Part shown: in pieces, positions 3,819 through 13,881 of the stretch | Layout of the letters: the number at the start of each line of letters is the position of its first letter | Numbering within the stretch: the stretch's first letter is position 1 | Origin: Acidobacteriota bacterium | GTDB taxonomy: Bacteria > Acidobacteriota > Aminicenantia > UBA2199 | NCBI GenBank assembly: GCA_021817755.1 | Contig: JAKAGC010000009.1 | Coordinates: forward strand, 1 to 17,559 | Length of the DNA: 17,559 nt | Direction of reading: 5' to 3' | Notes under the pieces: generated by a model | What the model saw: the letters and a program-made list of their open reading frames with translations, nothing else | What the model was told of the DNA's origin: nothing | Database searches by the model: none | Made by a program: the position numbers and the translations under genes

Positions 3819-6332
3819 TTAGTCTTCATTATCGCCCGGATATGGAACTGCTTTATTAGAAAACAGATCATATTGGGTTCGAGTAATCAATTCATCTTTC
3901 ATTGCATCATTTAAATCTTTAAAATATGCAGAATACCCCGAAACACGTACTACTAATCCGGGATAGGCAGATGGGTTTTTTCTAGCTGTTTTCAATTCAT
4001 CATAGGTATAAATATTATACTGAACCTGCATGCCTCCGTTCTCAAAATATCCGTCAATCATTGAAGTAAAATTGTTCAAATATTTTTCTTTTTGAGATGA
4101 GTCTGTTAACGGAGTATATTTCATATTAAGCGCAACTCCACCTGGTATATTTTTACTGTCTAATTTTGCAACAGAGAGATAAGCTGCCGTCAAATCTTTT
4201 GCCATTTGTGACGCAGGTGTTATTCCACTGGAAAAAAGTTCAAAATCTTTTCTTCCACTAGGTAGTGCTTTTCCAATTTTTCCAAGCCCTGCGTGATTAG
4301 TCATTGTCCAATATGCAGGACGATATTTTCCTCCGCGATAGTTCGTTTTCCCCTGATAATACTCATACAAAATATGTATTAACCATCGTGAATTTTCTTC
4401 TGCAATCTGATTATGCATTCCATATTTCGGTGCCTTATTCTTTAGATATGCATGGAGATTCTCATAACCGGTAAAATTCTTTTTTACTGCATCAATTAAT
4501 TGTTCCATCGTAAAAATTTTATTGTTATAAACCACATCTTCAATAGCATTCAAAGAGTCGCATACATCAGCGAAAGCCACATGAGTTGCTCCGGATGAAT
4601 TATATAATGCACCTCCAAAAATCAAATCCTTCCCTTTATCAAGAGGCCCTAAAAAGAAACTGGATAATAATGGAGTCGGTAACAATTTCTGATGCATTTT
4701 TCCGAATTCTTCATTCAGCATAATTGCTCTATCCAACAAAAAAAACAATTGTTTTTTAAATGCATCGAGAAATTGTTCGTATGTGGTAAACTCCTTCGGT
4801 TCACCAGTTTTGGGGCCTATTTGCTCATCACCCATCATATAGGGACGTTTTCCATTGTAGATAGTTAAATCCATTGCAGCGCTAAGATTGAATAAAATTG
4901 ATGAAGTAGATGCATATTCTCGTCCTGAGCTGTTTAATTCCACACAGCCGACGACTGCATAATCCCTCGCATGTTCCGGAGTTACCCCCTGATTTTCCAA
5001 TGTAGCAATATTCACTGTATCATTATACACAGCGGGTACTGCTTTTGTATTTAATATTACTTTTGCAACTCGATCTCGATACATTTCAGAATTAATCCCT
5101 TGGTGATATCGTGCATTCACGTTAGGATCTTTTATTAACAGAAGTTCAGTCACTCTCAACATTAAATAAGTTAAATCATTGACTGCATTATGACGGTCTT
5201 TGTCTATTCCACCTAAAGTTACCGCTGGCACCGAGCCGGCACCGCCAAAAAGTTTTTCAGCACTAGCTGGGACGAGATTCGTATTATCAGCTATCTTAAA
5301 CCATAAACAACCTATAATATTTAATGCTTGTTCAACCGTAATTTTTTTCTCTTCAACATCCTTTTTGAAAAAAGGATAGAGTATTTGATCTAAACGGCCG
5401 GGACTCATTGCCATGTTTACATTTTCTGCAAGTATACCTACATGGCATAACCATAATGAATTTACTGCTTCGCGAAATGAAGAAGCCGGATTTGCAGGGA
5501 CATGAGAACATATTTCCGCAATTTCATTATAATTGATTTTCTTTTCAGGAGTTGATGCTGTTGCAGCTAATTCTCAGGCTTTTTTTGCAAGATTTGAAGC
5601 ATAATTTAATATTCCTTTCATAGAAATTTGCATCGCTTCATAAAAGTCCGCTTTATCATTTTCATCTGAGGACAACATTTTTTTGCGAGCCTCAACTTCC
5701 TGAATCATTGTATTTAACCCTTTATGAAGGGCATCTTCATAATAAGGAACCGTATGTGAAATCACAGTACTTTTTCCATTCATAAAAAAGGCAATTTTTT
5801 CCATTAAGCGAAATGCTTCCATGACAGGATGTTTTTCCCCATCAGGTAATTCTTTCTCTTCGTCCAATAATTTTTTTCGAGTGACTTCCATGAGAGTTTT
5901 ATCTATCCAATAAGGAAAAACTTCAAAATTTAGTATCTCAGCTTCATCGGATGTTAATAATTCCGGATTTGCCTTTCGAGTTCCGATATCATCCAATTCA
6001 GGCCAGATACTTATTCCCATTAATTCTGGATAAACTGGGGCTCCCAAGGGTTTGGATGTTGTTGAACCAGCAATTAAATTATCGTCATGAAATAATGCTT
6101 CTCGATTACTTAGATAATAATTTATTGCCTTTGCTCTCGTAATAATGACAGGTTCATTTTTCCCTTCAACACTTTTCATATACTGTGTTAAATAATTAGA
6201 TCTCTCAATACAAACTGAAGTAGGAGTATTCAAGTATTGTTTTTTCAATCGATCGAGAAGCTCCAGTTTATTTAACGAATACTGTTCTAAAGCTGGATCC
6301 TGCTCAACTTCTTTCATAACAAATTTGTCCAT
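3819..6332 (-). pseudogene. Glycyl radical enzyme (PFL/glycerol dehydratase-like family), interrupted by one in-frame TGA
   Basis: Reading through codon 253 (TGA, 5574-5576) gives a normal full-length 837-residue GRE; the two open parts are 5577-6332 and 3819-5573. Start: an AGGAGG at 6340-6345 precedes ATGATG (6330-6335); I use the second ATG at 6332, and 6335 is equally possible. N-terminal family features include VIITRAKAINYYLSNREALF and GSTTSKPLGAPVYPE. The active-site loop is GCVELNSSGREYASTS with thiyl Cys at about 463 and Glu at +2; the glycyl radical loop is RVSGYSAYF with Gly at about 799, 38 residues from the end. Cys-x-Glu marks eliminase/dehydratase-type GREs (glycerol, propanediol, choline, hydroxyproline enzymes) and differs from Cys-Cys of pyruvate formate-lyase. 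The loop does not match any of these subgroups as I know them, so the substrate is open. An SCP2-like gene and the activase follow directly. Downstream translation could restart at ATG 5414, but that product would lack the N-terminal third. The stop is TAA. Confidence 0.85.
5574..5576 (-). other. In-frame TGA inside the glycyl radical enzyme gene
   Basis: On the minus strand the frame reads ...AsnLeuAlaLysLysAla-TGA-GluLeuAlaAlaThrAla... and is open on both sides for hundreds of codons. Aligned from memory with the family pattern YAERYAELAREMAAEET, the TGA falls where an Arg is common, so a single C-to-T (CGA to TGA) or A-to-T (AGA to TGA) change explains it. No other long gene here contains TGA, and Trp is encoded by TGG, so there is no sign of a changed code. 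The position is far from the catalytic Cys and the radical Gly. Confidence 0.9.
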
Positions 6333-6339
6333 CATATTT

Positions 6340-6345
6340 CCTCCT
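6340..6345 (-). promoter_or_regulatory. Ribosome binding site fixing the GRE start
   Basis: AGGAGG on the minus strand, 4 bases before ATG 6335 and 7 before ATG 6332. The frame is open further upstream to 6455, but that extension overlaps the end of the metallophosphoesterase gene, has no ribosome site, and does not look like GRE sequence. Confidence 0.8.
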
Positions 6346-6381
6346 ATAATGTTATAATGGCCTAATCTTTCAAATGTGTTT

Positions 6382-7686
6382 TTACATCGAAGAATAACCA
6401 ATGCTTTCCGATGAAAACCCCTCGCCGGTTTGATAAAAGAAAATTTCCGCACCACAAAAAACCATCTCTTTCGTTTCCTTATTGAGATGGTTCAACCATC
6501 CTCCTGTATTATACATTACGAGCTCTTTACCATGAAGCTGAGGTAATGAAATTTTAGGAGCTGTAGATGCTCCCCATGGAATTGGTTGATGAGTATGACC
6601 AAAGATCATGCGTTGGGGTAATGGAAAATCAATTCCACATCTCTCTTTGATTTCATCAATCTCATATGCGGTGGAGTCAAAAAATTCCTTAAATCGGGCT
6701 CTTACAAGCGGATCTTCCATAAATGTTTTATTATATCGCGCTTTCTTCGTTTTCCCTAGTGTTTTAAGCAGTTCTTTTTGAATCAGATCAAATCCGATTT
6801 TTTTTAAATATCCTTTAAAACCTTTAAAAAAACCCATCTTCTTTAATTCTTCCTCAAATCGATGAAAATACGGTTCCAATCGGCGAGTTTCATGTTCTTT
6901 CAACTCATGCTCTAGTTTTTGAATAACACGTGTTAATGGCCCTGCCTGTCCAATGGCGGAGCATCCCAACTGGCAAAGAGGAAAATTAATTGCCACCATT
7001 TCTTTCATATCCAACATTGCCTGATTTTTTATATCCAGGTCGCCATTAATAATCTTCAATCCCCATCTTCCAAGAATGGACCAATAGGCTTCCTGGTATT
7101 GTCCATGTGTTATTAATACCGTTTCATCATCAGTAATGAAATAAATATTTGGAAATACAAAATTAAAAGGAGTAGCCGGAGTAGTAATATGATCCATAAA
7201 AAGGCCTGCATAACTAGGTTTATGAGATTCTTTCCGGCGGCTTACATTAAACAAAGTAAAACCCCTATTAGATGTACTTTGCCGGTCATCAATTATTGCA
7301 GGGATCGACATACGAAAAGGAATGGGTAACTTTCCTCTCTCAAGTCGTTGGGTCACATTTACCTGGTATTCTACAGTATGCCATAAATCAAAATCATGAT
7401 TACCCGGGGTATAAATTATTTCTTTTGCAATACCATCATCTTTTAATTGTTGGAAAAAAAATTTCCCAATAGCATAGGCATCACTATAACTGGAAACCGA
7501 GAAATCAAGAATATCTCCTAGTAATACTAGATAATCTAGTTCTTCTCCACCAAATTTTGTTTTAATCTTATTTTTAAATGCATCATATTTCGAGCCTAAT
7601 TGAATTTGACCAGTCATTGGATCTTTCAAAACCATCACTGACATTGAATCTCCAAGATGAACATCCGAAATAATTGCTATCCGCAT
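6382..7686 (-). CDS. Calcineurin-like metallophosphoesterase
   Basis: 434 aa, cytoplasmic (no signal peptide). The two-metal phosphoesterase signature is complete and in order: D8-x-H10 (ISDVHLGD), G57-D58 (LVLLGDILDF), G95-N-H97-D (TPGNHDFD), H194 (LITHGQYQ) and G363-H364-x-H366 (FGHTHQP). Between about residues 200 and 350 there is a Lys/Glu-rich helical region not found in minimal members. The substrate cannot be told; phosphodiesterases acting on nucleic acids, nucleotides or lipid precursors all share this core. The start is ATG 7684-7686 after AGGAGG (7693-7698). A start 13 codons upstream is open but has no ribosome site. The gene ends 46 bases before the GRE start on the same strand, so it may be the first gene of that unit, but the gap is looser than the others. 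The stop is TAA. Confidence 0.88.
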   Translation of the reverse strand: MRIAIISDVHLGDSMSVMVLKDPMTGQIQLGSKYDAFKNKIKTKFGGEELDYLVLLGDILDFSVSSYSDAYAIGKFFFQQLKDDGIAKEIIYTPGNHDFDLWHTVEYQVNVTQRLERGKLPIPFRMSIPAIIDDRQSTSNRGFTLFNVSRRKESHKPSYAGLFMDHITTPATPFNFVFPNIYFITDDETVLITHGQYQEAYWSILGRWGLKIINGDLDIKNQAMLDMKEMVAINFPLCQLGCSAIGQAGPLTRVIQKLEHELKEHETRRLEPYFHRFEEELKKMGFFKGFKGYLKKIGFDLIQKELLKTLGKTKKARYNKTFMEDPLVRARFKEFFDSTAYEIDEIKERCGIDFPLPQRMIFGHTHQPIPWGASTAPKISLPQLHGKELVMYNTGGWLNHLNKETKEMVFCGAEIFFYQTGEGFSSESIGYSSM

Positions 7687-10397: not shown

Positions 10398-11858
10398 TTA
10401 GGCAAGAACTTTTGGCAATACGATATCGGATGTATCAAAAAAACGTGAAAGTTGATTTTTTATCTCATCAATTCTTTCAATATGGGATGAATATTCTTCT
10501 CTTATTCGTTCAATCTTCGACGTAGCAACACGGTATTCTTCCTTTAAAGCAGCAGCTCCTTTTTCAATCATGGTTTCAAATTCCATCCGTAATGATTTAA
10601 TCCGATAATCCATCTCTTTTTTATACTCTTCCACTAAATTACTTAACTTATTTATTCCTTTTTCAAATTCATTTCTTAAATTAATAGTACTATTTTCAAC
10701 AACAGTCACATATTCTTGTCTCAATTCACTAAAAAGTTCCTTTACGTGTACAATTTTGTCAATCCGAGCGACATTCGCCCCGGCAAATGCATAACCATCA
10801 TCGAGTTTACCTTGTCTCGCATTATTTAGCGCCTCAGAAATACAATACCTTGCGTCACGGGCTTTACAATGGGACAGGCATCTCCAAGCACATCGTACTT
10901 TCCGCGGAGTATCAGATTTCATTTCTTCTATGAAATTATTCCTTATTGCCCTCCCCGGTAAACCTACAGGGCTGGAAATAATTACAACATCCTCTGGATT
11001 GGAATTCACATAAACTTCCTTGAAACGTTGGTCTGCATCACATTCATGTGTTGCCACAAAACGAGAAGCCATCTGAACACCACTTGCCCCCATTTCAAGA
11101 AACTTGAAAATATCCTCTCCTGTAAAAATTCCACCGGCAGCTATTACAGGGATAGATTTACCACTCTCTTTTTCAAATGGTAATACGGCTTCTATAACCT
11201 TAGGAATTATTTTCTCCAAAGCAAAATCCGGATTATCGATTTCTTCACGAGAGAATCCGAGGTGACCTCCGGCTTTTGGGCCCTCTACTACTACTGCGTC
11301 CGGAATATCATTATAATTCTTTTTCCAATAACTAAATATTAAGTTTGCAGCTCTAGCAGAGCTAACAATAGGTACGATGCCTATTTTTTGTTTCCGAATC
11401 GAATCCAGGGGAATATTTTTTAACGGGAGACCTGCTCCTAAAAAAATAATATCAACTTTTTCTTCAATGGAAACCTGCAATAAATCGTAAAAATCATTTA
11501 AGGCCACCATAATATTGACACCAAGAACTCCTGTTCCTTTTTCTCTTGCTTTTCTTATTTCTTGCCTTAGTGTACGAATATTGGCTTCTTTTCCATCCTG
11601 ATAATAATTTGGATCGATCATCCCGATAGCATTAGCAGCAATTACACCAATACCTCCTTCTTCGGCAACAGCTGAGGCCAATCCGGAAAGCGAAATTCCA
11701 ACGCCCATTCCACCCTGAATAATCGGTATACGAGATTCGCTTCTTCCTATTTTTAATGTGGGAAAACGAATATCTGTAGAGTTAAAAAAAGAAAATTTGA
11801 GTCCACTAAAGTCAATTTTAGGAAAAGAAAACAAAAACGGCGCTTGATTCGATTTCAT
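10398..11858 (-). CDS. Nitronate monooxygenase / FabK-like FMN protein with coiled-coil tail
   Basis: 486 aa. The core (about 33-360) is an FMN TIM barrel of the nitronate monooxygenase/2-nitropropane dioxygenase family. It shows IPIIQGGMGVGIS (44-56), FLGAGLP (139-145), the EGPKAGGHLG loop with the candidate catalytic His199, and the phosphate-binding AAGGIFTGEDIFKFLEMGA (240-258). A Cys set, CAWRCLSHCKARDARYC (C323, C327, C331, C339), resembles that of related anaerobe proteins and could bind metal. Residues about 375-475 add a charged heptad-like helix, predicted coiled coil, beyond the usual family length of about 310-360. Residues 1-32 are also an unusual extension. An AGGAGG lies 4 bases before ATG 11856-11858. 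The gene stands alone: a terminator lies upstream and the permease converges on its 3' end. The substrate is unproven. The stop is TAA. Confidence 0.85.
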   Translation of the reverse strand: MKSNQAPFLFSFPKIDFSGLKFSFFNSTDIRFPTLKIGRSESRIPIIQGGMGVGISLSGLASAVAEEGGIGVIAANAIGMIDPNYYQDGKEANIRTLRQEIRKAREKGTGVLGVNIMVALNDFYDLLQVSIEEKVDIIFLGAGLPLKNIPLDSIRKQKIGIVPIVSSARAANLIFSYWKKNYNDIPDAVVVEGPKAGGHLGFSREEIDNPDFALEKIIPKVIEAVLPFEKESGKSIPVIAAGGIFTGEDIFKFLEMGASGVQMASRFVATHECDADQRFKEVYVNSNPEDVVIISSPVGLPGRAIRNNFIEEMKSDTPRKVRCAWRCLSHCKARDARYCISEALNNARQGKLDDGYAFAGANVARIDKIVHVKELFSELRQEYVTVVENSTINLRNEFEKGINKLSNLVEEYKKEMDYRIKSLRMEFETMIEKGAAALKEEYRVATSKIERIREEYSSHIERIDEIKNQLSRFFDTSDIVLPKVLA

Positions 11859-11937
11859 ATTGCCTCCTTATGCATTTCACCAGGAGTACAACATGTCAAA
11901 CGACTTGGAATTGACGTTTTTCTCCTCATGAATCCAT

Positions 11938-11943
11938 ATAATA
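11938..11943 (-). promoter_or_regulatory. Possible extended -10 promoter element of the nitronate monooxygenase-like gene
   Basis: TATTAT on the minus strand, preceded by TGG (extended -10, TGn). It would start RNA near 11931, about 73 bases before the ATG. No good -35 box is seen at 16-18 bases. A promoter is needed in this interval because a strong terminator closes the region upstream. Confidence 0.35.
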
Positions 11944-11981
11944 CCACAATTTCAAGAAAAAGACACCATTTTTTAAAAAAC

Positions 11982-12019
11982 AAAAAAAAAGCCTTCACCC
12001 CCGGAGGAGGGATGAAGGC
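11982..12019 (-). terminator. Strong intrinsic terminator with an anti-Shine-Dalgarno loop
   Basis: On the minus strand GCCTTCA pairs with TGAAGGC (12013-12019 with 11991-11997). The stem continues with one U-G wobble and CCC/GGG, giving 11 pairs capped by UCCUCCG, and is followed at once by nine T (11990 to 11982), then G and six more T. Read on the plus strand, the wobble becomes a C-A mismatch and the T run is separated from the stem by 6 bases, so the minus-strand reading is favoured. It lies 443 bases after the end of the response regulator gene and 132 bases before the next ATG. Confidence 0.88.
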
Positions 12020-12186
12020 CTGGTGTTTTTTTTTGTGGGTACCTTTGTGAGGATTATATGACTATAATAAAATATGAGCGACCTCCGGTTTACTGATACC
12101 CACAGTAACCTCTAAAAAATATTAATAACTATAAAAATTTTTGATTTTACCTTTAATTGCTCATTCACTCATTATAAATGTATGAG
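11982..12186 (-). ncRNA. Candidate sigma-54-dependent small RNA, about 205 nt
   Basis: The limits are predicted from a -24/-12 promoter (12197-12212, start near 12186) and the intrinsic terminator ending at 11982. I find no credible coding frame inside; the one short ATG frame stops after three codons. Minus-strand structures, 5' to 3': CTCAT/ATGAG near the 5' end; a hairpin GGTTACTG (12110-12103) with CAGTAAACC (12095-12087, one bulged A) and loop UGGGUAU; a perfect 6-pair AUUAUA-GUCA-UAUAAU hairpin (12068-12053) flanked by GAGG/CCUC; an A-rich linker; and the terminator hairpin with loop CCUCC. Loop UGGGUA can pair with UACCCA (12041-12036), a possible pseudoknot. The gene lies directly downstream of a sigma-54 activator, as for Qrr, CrcZ and GlmY. 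I do not recognise the family. Function is inferred: pairing with ribosome sites through the C/U-rich loop. Confidence 0.6.
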
Positions 12187-12196
12187 ATAAATATGA

Positions 12197-12212
12197 AGCA
12201 AAATTGTTGCCA
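12197..12212 (-). promoter_or_regulatory. Sigma-54 (-24/-12) promoter
   Basis: The minus strand reads TGGCAACAATTTTGCT. The GG and GC doublets are at the exact required spacing, with TGGCA at -24 and TTGCT at -12, against the consensus TGGCAC-N5-TTGC(A/T). RNA would begin near 12186. The match sits in an intergenic region facing a terminator and lies 250 bases downstream of a gene for a sigma-54 activator, which strengthens it. Confidence 0.72.
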
Positions 12213-12247
12213 AAAATTTAAATATTCGAAAATTGCCTTATTAAAAT

Positions 12248-12261
12248 GAAAATCGATTTTC
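12248..12261. promoter_or_regulatory. Perfect 14-base palindrome upstream of the sigma-54 promoter
   Basis: GAAAATCGATTTTC is its own reverse complement. It is centred roughly 68 bases before the predicted start of the small RNA, between the promoter and the distal inverted repeat. It may bind a regulator or a DNA-bending protein; in AT-rich DNA a chance palindrome is also possible. Confidence 0.35.
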
Positions 12262-12366
12262 CCCTCCAGAAAACCCCGACAACTTATTTTGACTTCACTT
12301 TCATCTACCACCCAGAATTTCATCCACAACAAACATCAATTCGATAGAAACGAGATGTCTCCCAAA

Positions 12367-12406
12367 ATTGTCAGTGTCAATTTTTATTGACATAGTTTCA
12401 TGACAG
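12367..12406. promoter_or_regulatory. Candidate enhancer (activator binding) site cluster
   Basis: TGTCAATTTTTATTGACA (12375-12392) is a perfect 7+7 inverted repeat with a 4-base spacer. Two further TGTCA half sites flank it: TTGTCA at 12368-12373 and TGACAG at 12401-12406. The cluster lies about 190-220 bases before the predicted sigma-54 start, a usual distance for an NtrC-type activator acting by DNA looping. No other gene's promoter is nearby on either strand. Assignment to the adjacent regulator is inference. Confidence 0.5.
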
Positions 12407-12462
12407 TATTATCCCTCTAATAGATTGTGTAATTTAGAAAAATCTTTAAATATGATATAACT

Positions 12463-13881
12463 TTATGCTTTTGAAGTTTTTAAACGTTTGCTAAGGGCTT
12501 GTTTAGTTATTCCCAACATTCTGGATGCAATACTTTGATTATTTCCGGAACGTTCCATAGCAAGTTGAATCAAAGCCCTTTGCACCTGTTTAAGAGTCGG
12601 TAATGGTTCTGATGGAGAAATTTTTAACCAGGGATGAGTTAATGGGTGAAGTGGTTTATCAGCTACTTCTTGTTTATTTTCTTCAAGGTAACGCTTAAAA
12701 CTATCCATTGAAAGCATTCGCGAACTGTGCATACTCACAGCTTTTAAAATCAAGGATCTTAGTTCGCGTAAATTCCCTGGAAAATGAAATACAGAAAGTA
12801 ATGTATACAATTCTTCAGGAGGTGTCGGTTTCTTTTTCCCTAATGCTTTCCCGGCTTCTTCTAAAAAATGATCGACCAACAAAGGTAAATCGTCCATTCG
12901 TTCTCTTAAAGGAGGTAGTTTTATATGATGAACATCTAATCTATAGAATAAATCCTTACGAAATTTACCTTCTTCATGTAATCGGGATAAATTGCGATTA
13001 GTAGCAGTTATAATCAACGCATCAGAATATCTTGGCTCATCATCACCCAGTGCATAGTATTCTTTTTCCTGAAGAAGTCTTAGTAATTTGACCTGGGATT
13101 GAACACTCATATCACCTATTTCATCCAAAAAAAGAGTCCCGGAAGCTGCCATTTCAATAAAACCTTGTCTATCTTTACTGGCGTCTGTAAAAGCACCTTT
13201 CTTATGGCCAAATAGTGTATCTGAAAACATTTGATCATCAAGACCACCGATATTTACAGGGACAAATCTTCCTTTTCGCCCACTTAAAGCATGAAAGGCT
13301 CTTGCGATCAATTCCTTTCCAGTCCCCGTTTCACCTGTTACTAGAATTGGCTCATTTGTTCTTTTTATTGCTTCCATATAGTGAAAAATTGCATTCATTT
13401 TTTCATTTCGGGTAATAATTTTTGAAAAAGCTTCGGGTTGTTCGAGTTTCTGGAAAAAAAACTTTTGTTTAAGAGATATATTTTCTTTTCTTAGTTCACT
13501 TAATTCAATCGCTTTTTTAATACTACTTATTAACCGGCTTTCTTCAACGGGTTTTAGAATATAATCCAACGCCCCTTTTTGCATACACCTTACAGCAATA
13601 TCGATTTCCGTTTTACCTGTTACGATAATTACCTGTGTTTGTGGAAATTGATTTTTTATACTTTCTAGTAATTCTTCCCCAGAAATATAAGGCATCGTTA
13701 AATCCAGAAGTACAACATCCACTTTCTGTTTTTCGATTATATCAAGAACCTGGCGACTGTCCTGGCAGGAAATAATATTGTTGATTCCAGCCATTTTCAA
13801 CATGAATGTAAACCCGTCTATAATGTGAGATTCATCATCTACTGTCATTATGGGATTTTCGGGATATAAAATTTTTTCCAT
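12463..13881 (-). CDS. NtrC-family sigma-54-activating response regulator
   Basis: 472 aa in three parts. The receiver (1-125) has acid pocket D15/D16, phosphoacceptor D60 (VVLLDLTMP), T88 and K110. The AAA+ domain (about 155-390) has Walker A GETGTGKE (183-190), sigma-54-contact loop GAFTDA (229-234), Walker B FLDEIGD (D253, E254) and arginine-finger region FRKDLFYRLDV. The Fis-type helix-turn-helix is at about 440-470 (NNQSIASRMLGITKQALSKR). When phosphorylated it should assemble, bind DNA enhancers and remodel sigma-54 polymerase. GAFTDA replaces the commoner GAFTGA, a variant I know from other members. ATG 13879-13881 follows GTGAGG. No sensor kinase is in the window. A sigma-54 promoter with an inverted-repeat cluster begins right after its stop and is its most obvious target. 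The gene is 140 bases downstream of the CheY-like gene on the same strand. The stop is TAA. Confidence 0.95.
   Translation of the reverse strand: MEKILYPENPIMTVDDESHIIDGFTFMLKMAGINNIISCQDSRQVLDIIEKQKVDVVLLDLTMPYISGEELLESIKNQFPQTQVIIVTGKTEIDIAVRCMQKGALDYILKPVEESRLISSIKKAIELSELRKENISLKQKFFFQKLEQPEAFSKIITRNEKMNAIFHYMEAIKRTNEPILVTGETGTGKELIARAFHALSGRKGRFVPVNIGGLDDQMFSDTLFGHKKGAFTDASKDRQGFIEMAASGTLFLDEIGDMSVQSQVKLLRLLQEKEYYALGDDEPRYSDALIITATNRNLSRLHEEGKFRKDLFYRLDVHHIKLPPLRERMDDLPLLVDHFLEEAGKALGKKKPTPPEELYTLLSVFHFPGNLRELRSLILKAVSMHSSRMLSMDSFKRYLEENKQEVADKPLHPLTHPWLKISPSEPLPTLKQVQRALIQLAMERSGNNQSIASRMLGITKQALSKRLKTSKA

Follow-up and report, generated by a model that had tools for sequence, protein, structure and literature searches.

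The window, a 17,559-nucleotide stretch of DNA, is one contig of a 4.74-Mb assembly that comprises 811 contigs and is 79.6% complete. On its minus strand, the gene of an NtrC-type response regulator is followed by several repeats, a -24/-12 element, a stretch that lacks long open reading frames, an intrinsic terminator and a FabK/nitronate monooxygenase-like gene (Table 1); these parts and their order are plain from the DNA itself. Elsewhere in the window (3819-6455, minus strand), a glycyl radical enzyme gene contains one in-frame TGA near 5575, and both halves match the PFL-like family. The rpoC fragment shows 84% identity to that of a congener and 56-57% to those of three relatives of the same class. 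Among the named genomes, 14 of 16 produced an rpoC match, with the Acidiferrales genome at 57%, the other near-full-length matches at no more than 53% and shorter matches at up to 75%; no match was obtained in the second acidobacterial genome probed (Sulfopaludibacter). The identity to this one named genome makes it likely that the window belongs to Acidobacteriota.

Table 1. Features of the regulator-terminator region of the window.
Feature	Position	Strand	Basis
NtrC-type response regulator, probable activator	12463..13881	-	Pfam domains; relatives at 44-66% identity
Candidate activator site TGTCAAT-N4-ATTGACA	12375..12392	-	inverted repeat in sequence
Repeat overlapping the candidate activator site	12364-12384	-	sequence
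14-bp palindrome GAAAATCGATTTTC, 5' of the box	12248..12261	-	sequence
Sigma-54 -24/-12 element TGGCAACAATTTTGCT	12197..12212	-	rare by chance; counterparts 3' of related regulators
Predicted untranslated RNA, ~205 nt	11982..12186	-	start inferred from box, end from terminator
Possible long-range stem GTGGGTA...TACCCAC within the RNA	12034..12103	-	sequence and one minimum-energy fold
Intrinsic terminator with 5-nt CCUCC loop and T-run	11982..12021	-	hairpin 12021-11989, T-run 11990-11982
Possible separate vegetative promoter for the next gene, extended -10 TGgTATTAT	11934..11946	-	by eye
FabK/nitronate monooxygenase-like gene, 3' of the terminator	10398..11858	-	PF03060

The regulator scores above the Pfam cut-offs for receiver (PF00072), sigma-54 activator (PF00158), lid (PF25601) and Fis-type helix-turn-helix (PF02954) domains and carries a GAFTDA loop, in full agreement with the sequence-only reading, which had described a complete sigma-54 activator with this loop and a Fis-type helix-turn-helix. 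The combination of a receiver, an AAA+ domain with a GAFTGA-type loop and a Fis-type helix-turn-helix is that of Group I sigma-54 enhancer-binding proteins (NtrC family). The protein falls far below the NCBIfam cut-offs for LuxO (260 vs 800 bits) and GlrR (248 vs 763 bits). No histidine kinase domain was found among the nine window proteins scanned. The genus is rich in such regulators, with at least 39-40 matches to the window regulator in each genus genome.

The -24/-12 element, which we refer to as the box, lies 250 nt past the regulator gene and has the exact GG-N10-GC spacing that had been claimed for it; the pattern TGGCA-N7-TGCW occurs once in the whole window, compared with a mean of 0.08 in 100 shuffled sequences. 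The cluster of inverted repeats described upstream of the box is present but weak: three perfect repeats with 7-bp arms were counted against a shuffle mean of 0.92, a number reached in 31 of 300 shuffles. By raw count, TGTCAA/TTGACA is found between the regulator gene and the box in five of the six loci examined, being absent in L038 (see below).

Within the 206-nt stretch behind the box, the two longest frames, of 18 and 13 codons, start with GTG, the shorter one after AGAGG; the claim of about 200 bases without a coding frame is borne out in the sense that nothing exceeds 18 codons. The stretch ends, as had been proposed, in a terminator hairpin (14 pairs by our count, seven of them G-C) followed by nine T. 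One terminator-like site was detected in 11800-12600, against a shuffle mean of 0.4 (sd 0.9), under criteria less demanding than the properties of this site. The stretch folds better than its shuffles mostly through the terminator: z is -4.1 to -4.4 with the terminator (0 of 200 shuffles being as good for z -4.1), whereas without it the signal is modest (z -2.4; 10 of 500 shuffles as good). The possible long-range stem is found in one fold, and an input four bases longer folds otherwise in that part.

A check of the genome for rpoN, as suggested by the sequence-only reading, gave a divided result. Neither the DNA-binding nor the core-binding domain was found in the own, 79.6%-complete assembly, whereas 39 of the 40 relatives, the three congeners among them, have rpoN; the search covered 41 genomes, and its two misses are the own assembly and one that is 63% complete. 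Given this distribution, an assembly gap is the likeliest reason for the absence. Furthermore, the pattern TGGCAHN5TTGCW is about 4 to 6 times more common than its reversed control in all four genomes of the genus (35 vs 9 in the own genome, 107 vs 19, 52 vs 12 and 40 vs 8), which shows that -24/-12 promoters are truly used in the genus.

We sampled 84 of the 234 counted boxes, comprising the complete own-genome set of 35 and a further 49 of the three congeners. Twenty-four are located inside long open frames; for the remaining 60, the nearest ORF starts no more than 150 nt past the box in 48 (median 51) and at 150-350 nt in four, and eight lack one, although two of these eight have less than 20 nt of sequence left and one has 169 nt. 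The window is among the four, through the frame beyond its terminator. Set against this usual proximity of a reading frame, the window is an exception to the protein-coding pattern.

A similar arrangement is present in the same genome at L223 (163-360; G000:C695), where a box is followed by an ORF-less, strongly folded stretch of ~185 nt and a G/C-rich terminator with nine T; the contig begins 162 nt upstream of this box. By its layout, L223 is a second candidate sigma-54 RNA of this genome. A search with its RNA outside the own genome produced four matches of 24-37 bases, two of them over the box area, where L267 has a true box in front of a protein gene and L268 has no box at that place; no convincing homologue was found outside the own genome in the family genomes searched. 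Other loci with an apparently ORF-less box are not counted as RNA genes: L186 was rejected because a peptide gene starts 103 nt after the box, L211 contains a 7-codon frame, L219 and L179 have less than 20 nt of sequence left, L216 has 169 nt left, and no cleanly terminated unit is apparent in L209, L192, L230 and L281.

Boxes are also located 38-75 nt before short ORFs in L206, L215, L199, L172, L227 and L279, and at 103 nt in L186. We take these ORFs to resemble RiPP precursors, with LNxxEM-type leaders that in part contain a double glycine, and their positions suggest sigma-54 control of peptide natural products in the genus. In L273 (G000:C362), a response-regulator gene and a 417-aa ORF that diverges from it are separated by a region with sigma-54 boxes and a long hairpin.

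The regulators compared with that of the window came from 29 stretches of relatives, selected among the best matches, and from the best 80 loci of a scan of named genomes; those with at least 44% identity to the window regulator, a cut of our own choice, were kept (range 44-66%). Among the 35 kept rows, including the window, 14 have a box scoring at least 9/10 within 700 nt downstream, and eight of these score 10/10; some of the 9/10 boxes are doubtful, that of L055 being inside an ORF. Because several contigs end early (L036, L050, L058, L060 and L062), the misses are partly blind. In a tree of 33 rows, the window groups with L038 (100/100), this pair with L035 and L036 (98/89), and L037 joins them (99/97). 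The box is found 182-311 nt downstream of four of the five regulators of this clade, namely the window, L038 (9/10), L035 and L036, so the conservation of the box in close relatives, which had been put forward as a check, was observed, and this comparison is the strongest evidence for the locus; L037 has no box at 9/10 or better within 700 nt downstream. A search for weaker boxes behind 13 further regulators yielded five at 8/10, located behind L037, L039 and L084, with just 70 nt open to this search in L050. The 8/10 box behind L084 (at 267 nt) could be real, and the box misses are therefore not firm.

Given that the contig of L036 ends 2 nt after the box, the product can be read only for the window, L035 and L038 within the clade. 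In L038, the closest regulator to that of the window, a subtilase gene (PF00082) starts 69 nt after the box. In L035 (61% identity, another genus), no credible ORF is seen over the 104 nt between the box and the T-run of a G/C-rich hairpin; a single GTG frame, of 26 codons, extends across the terminator, and past the unit the next long frame (475 aa) is encoded by the opposite strand. Among more distant relatives, boxes precede sodium:dicarboxylate symporters (PF00375) in Geomonas and in an Oceanospirillaceae genome and, as judged by eye, a response regulator, a pilus-like protein and 278-aa secreted proteins. Judging from these sequences, the promoter that follows the regulator gene is what relatives have in common, and its product is what varies. 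In L063, a box is located 379 nt after a related regulator and 41 nt before a gene for an 87-aa lysine-rich, apparently secreted repeat peptide.

Rfam includes the Qrr, CrcZ and GlmY-GlmZ families. At gathering scores, there is no Rfam match in the window, and a permissive search of 11900-12500 returned 10 weak matches (E up to 5), none of them to these families. At permissive thresholds, the window, L035, L223, L209 and L216 all stay short of the family cut-offs; the description of the RNA as unrecognised thus holds against Rfam. No convincing homologue of the window RNA was found by sequence in 34 genomes of the family, the best match outside the own genome covering 31 bases of the AT-rich part at 91% (E 1e-4). 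The words shared among the three RNAs are A/T-rich 8-mers between the window and L035 and the T9 run between the window and L223, and nothing more.

The window combines a -24/-12 box, a downstream stretch with no ORF, a terminator and an adjoining activator gene, and this layout has precedents. According to the accessible text of two studies, pxr of Myxococcus xanthus sits downstream of the sigma-54 response regulator nla19/pxrR, and the 260-262-nt intergenic region upstream of pxr holds a predicted sigma-54 promoter (PMC5568312, PMC5684412). As in the window, the gene of an NtrC-like response regulator is directly upstream and the predicted promoter lies in between. The differences, within the same text, are that Pxr has 108 nt as opposed to the ~205 nt predicted for the window RNA, that a gene for a predicted partner kinase, pxrK, has been named, and that M. 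xanthus lacks hfq, whereas the own genome encodes an Hfq-like protein. In two Myxococcus genomes, the best-scoring regulators, which may or may not include PxrR, are 33-38% identical to that of the window (short segments to 44%), compared with 44-66% for the kept rows. In these genomes, L313 and L308 each have an NtrC-type regulator and a box, followed by C-rich hairpin stretches that resemble one another and possibly represent Pxr or a relative; we do not name them Pxr because the adjoining frames, by eye, are unlike the published pxr neighbour. Myxobacteria were formerly counted among Proteobacteria. The locus had been presented as an independent example outside Proteobacteria; the likely placement in Acidobacteriota agrees with this, but, because Pxr has an equal layout, the window would not be the first case outside today's Pseudomonadota.

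In Pseudomonas, crcZ is directly downstream of cbrB, and CbrB activates crcZ from an RpoN-dependent promoter, as stated in the accessible parts of two papers (PMC10562864, PMC6296734). The window resembles this system in having a predicted RNA gene behind the activator gene and differs from it in that the window RNA has no Rfam match. The repeats of CrcZ bind Hfq/Crc, and no such repeat array is visible by eye in the window RNA. In GlrR-GlmY, an NtrC-family activator and a sigma-54 promoter drive a regulatory RNA. LuxO, per the accessible text, acts at the sigma-54 promoter of the regulatory RNA qrr1 (PMC10162802). The window shares the activator family and promoter type with LuxO-Qrr and GlrR-GlmY, and differs in the lack of an Rfam match for the RNA and in a regulator that scores below the LuxO and GlrR cut-offs. 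The window is therefore best read as a new case of the known layout in which a sigma-54 RNA is placed beside its activator, the likeness being one of layout. The main text of a 2025 comparison of sigma-54 regulons, as far as accessible, does not contain the terms 'small RNA', 'sRNA' or 'Acidobacteri' (PMC12316311), and a narrow search of the open-access literature, in which hyphenated fixed phrases may miss papers, returned no precedent for a sigma-54 sRNA in Acidobacteria/Aminicenantes; what it did return dealt, by title, with Desulfobacteraceae and with an Enterobacteriaceae RNA.

The stretch behind the box could instead be a 5' leader that ends in a conditional terminator, or attenuator, and places the FabK-like gene under sigma-54 control. 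This gene shares the strand and begins ~340 nt past the box; by eye, the leader has a CCGGAGG that is complementary to a CCTCCGG of the terminator, and the 13-codon GTG frame after AGAGG would suit such a leader. However, the 700 nt before the gene contain no box in any of 17 other FabK-like loci (one with 9 nt of upstream sequence; all closer than the homologues at about 30% identity), L035 has a similar terminated unit with the next long frame on the opposite strand, and no Rfam leader reaches its cut-off. A separate extended -10 past the terminator, seen by eye and not called by the promoter scanner, also argues against the leader. The FabK-like gene is probably outside the unit; the leader arrangement, while possible, is disfavoured, and we consider it unlikely.

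Comparably improbable, in our estimate, is that the promoter is a relic of a lost protein gene and gives rise to a functionless leftover transcript, as might be supposed from the subtilase behind the sister regulator L038, the symporter or other proteins behind other relatives, and the lack of conservation of the RNA sequence. Points against a relic are that the box is intact, that a strong terminator stands where it would stop a short transcript, that the arrangement recurs in another genus (L035) and that the fold beats shuffles, mostly through the terminator. That the transcript is a short mRNA for a tiny peptide has very little to recommend it: although several sigma-54 boxes in the genus precede short ORFs and the GTG frame after AGAGG is of the appropriate kind, no frame exceeds 18 codons and the two longest start with GTG.

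We consider it probable that an activator-driven sigma-54 promoter gives rise to an untranslated RNA of ~205 nt that ends before the FabK-like gene and most likely acts in trans; transcription, activation by the adjoining regulator and mode of action are what we infer from the arrangement. Under this scheme, the phosphorylated activator would bind the candidate sites that lie between the end of its own gene and the box and drive sigma-54 RNA polymerase to produce the RNA, which would stop at the terminator. As the first choice, the RNA would pair with mRNA leaders, for example, via the CCUCC terminator loop, which is complementary to Shine-Dalgarno sequences, and an Hfq-like protein may help this pairing; the own genome encodes such a protein (over the Pfam cut-off) as well as CsrA. 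As the second choice, the RNA might titrate an RNA-binding protein, and titration of CsrA, though the protein is present, is not favoured because the window RNA contains a single GGA.

A broader and decidedly tentative proposal is that a sigma-54 promoter has been retained directly behind the genes of this regulator subfamily while what it drives has changed freely from lineage to lineage (a symporter, a subtilase, secreted proteins or an RNA). In this probably acidobacterial family, the product would have become a regulatory RNA, perhaps on more than one occasion, and the genome would hold further sigma-54 RNAs, L223 being an example. If the window RNA is transcribed, the layout of an activator beside its own RNA, documented in Pseudomonas and Myxococcus, extends to a regulator-rich lineage, and the sister pair of the window and L038, with an RNA and a protein, respectively, behind a like promoter, would make the origin of an sRNA at the regulator's own promoter testable.
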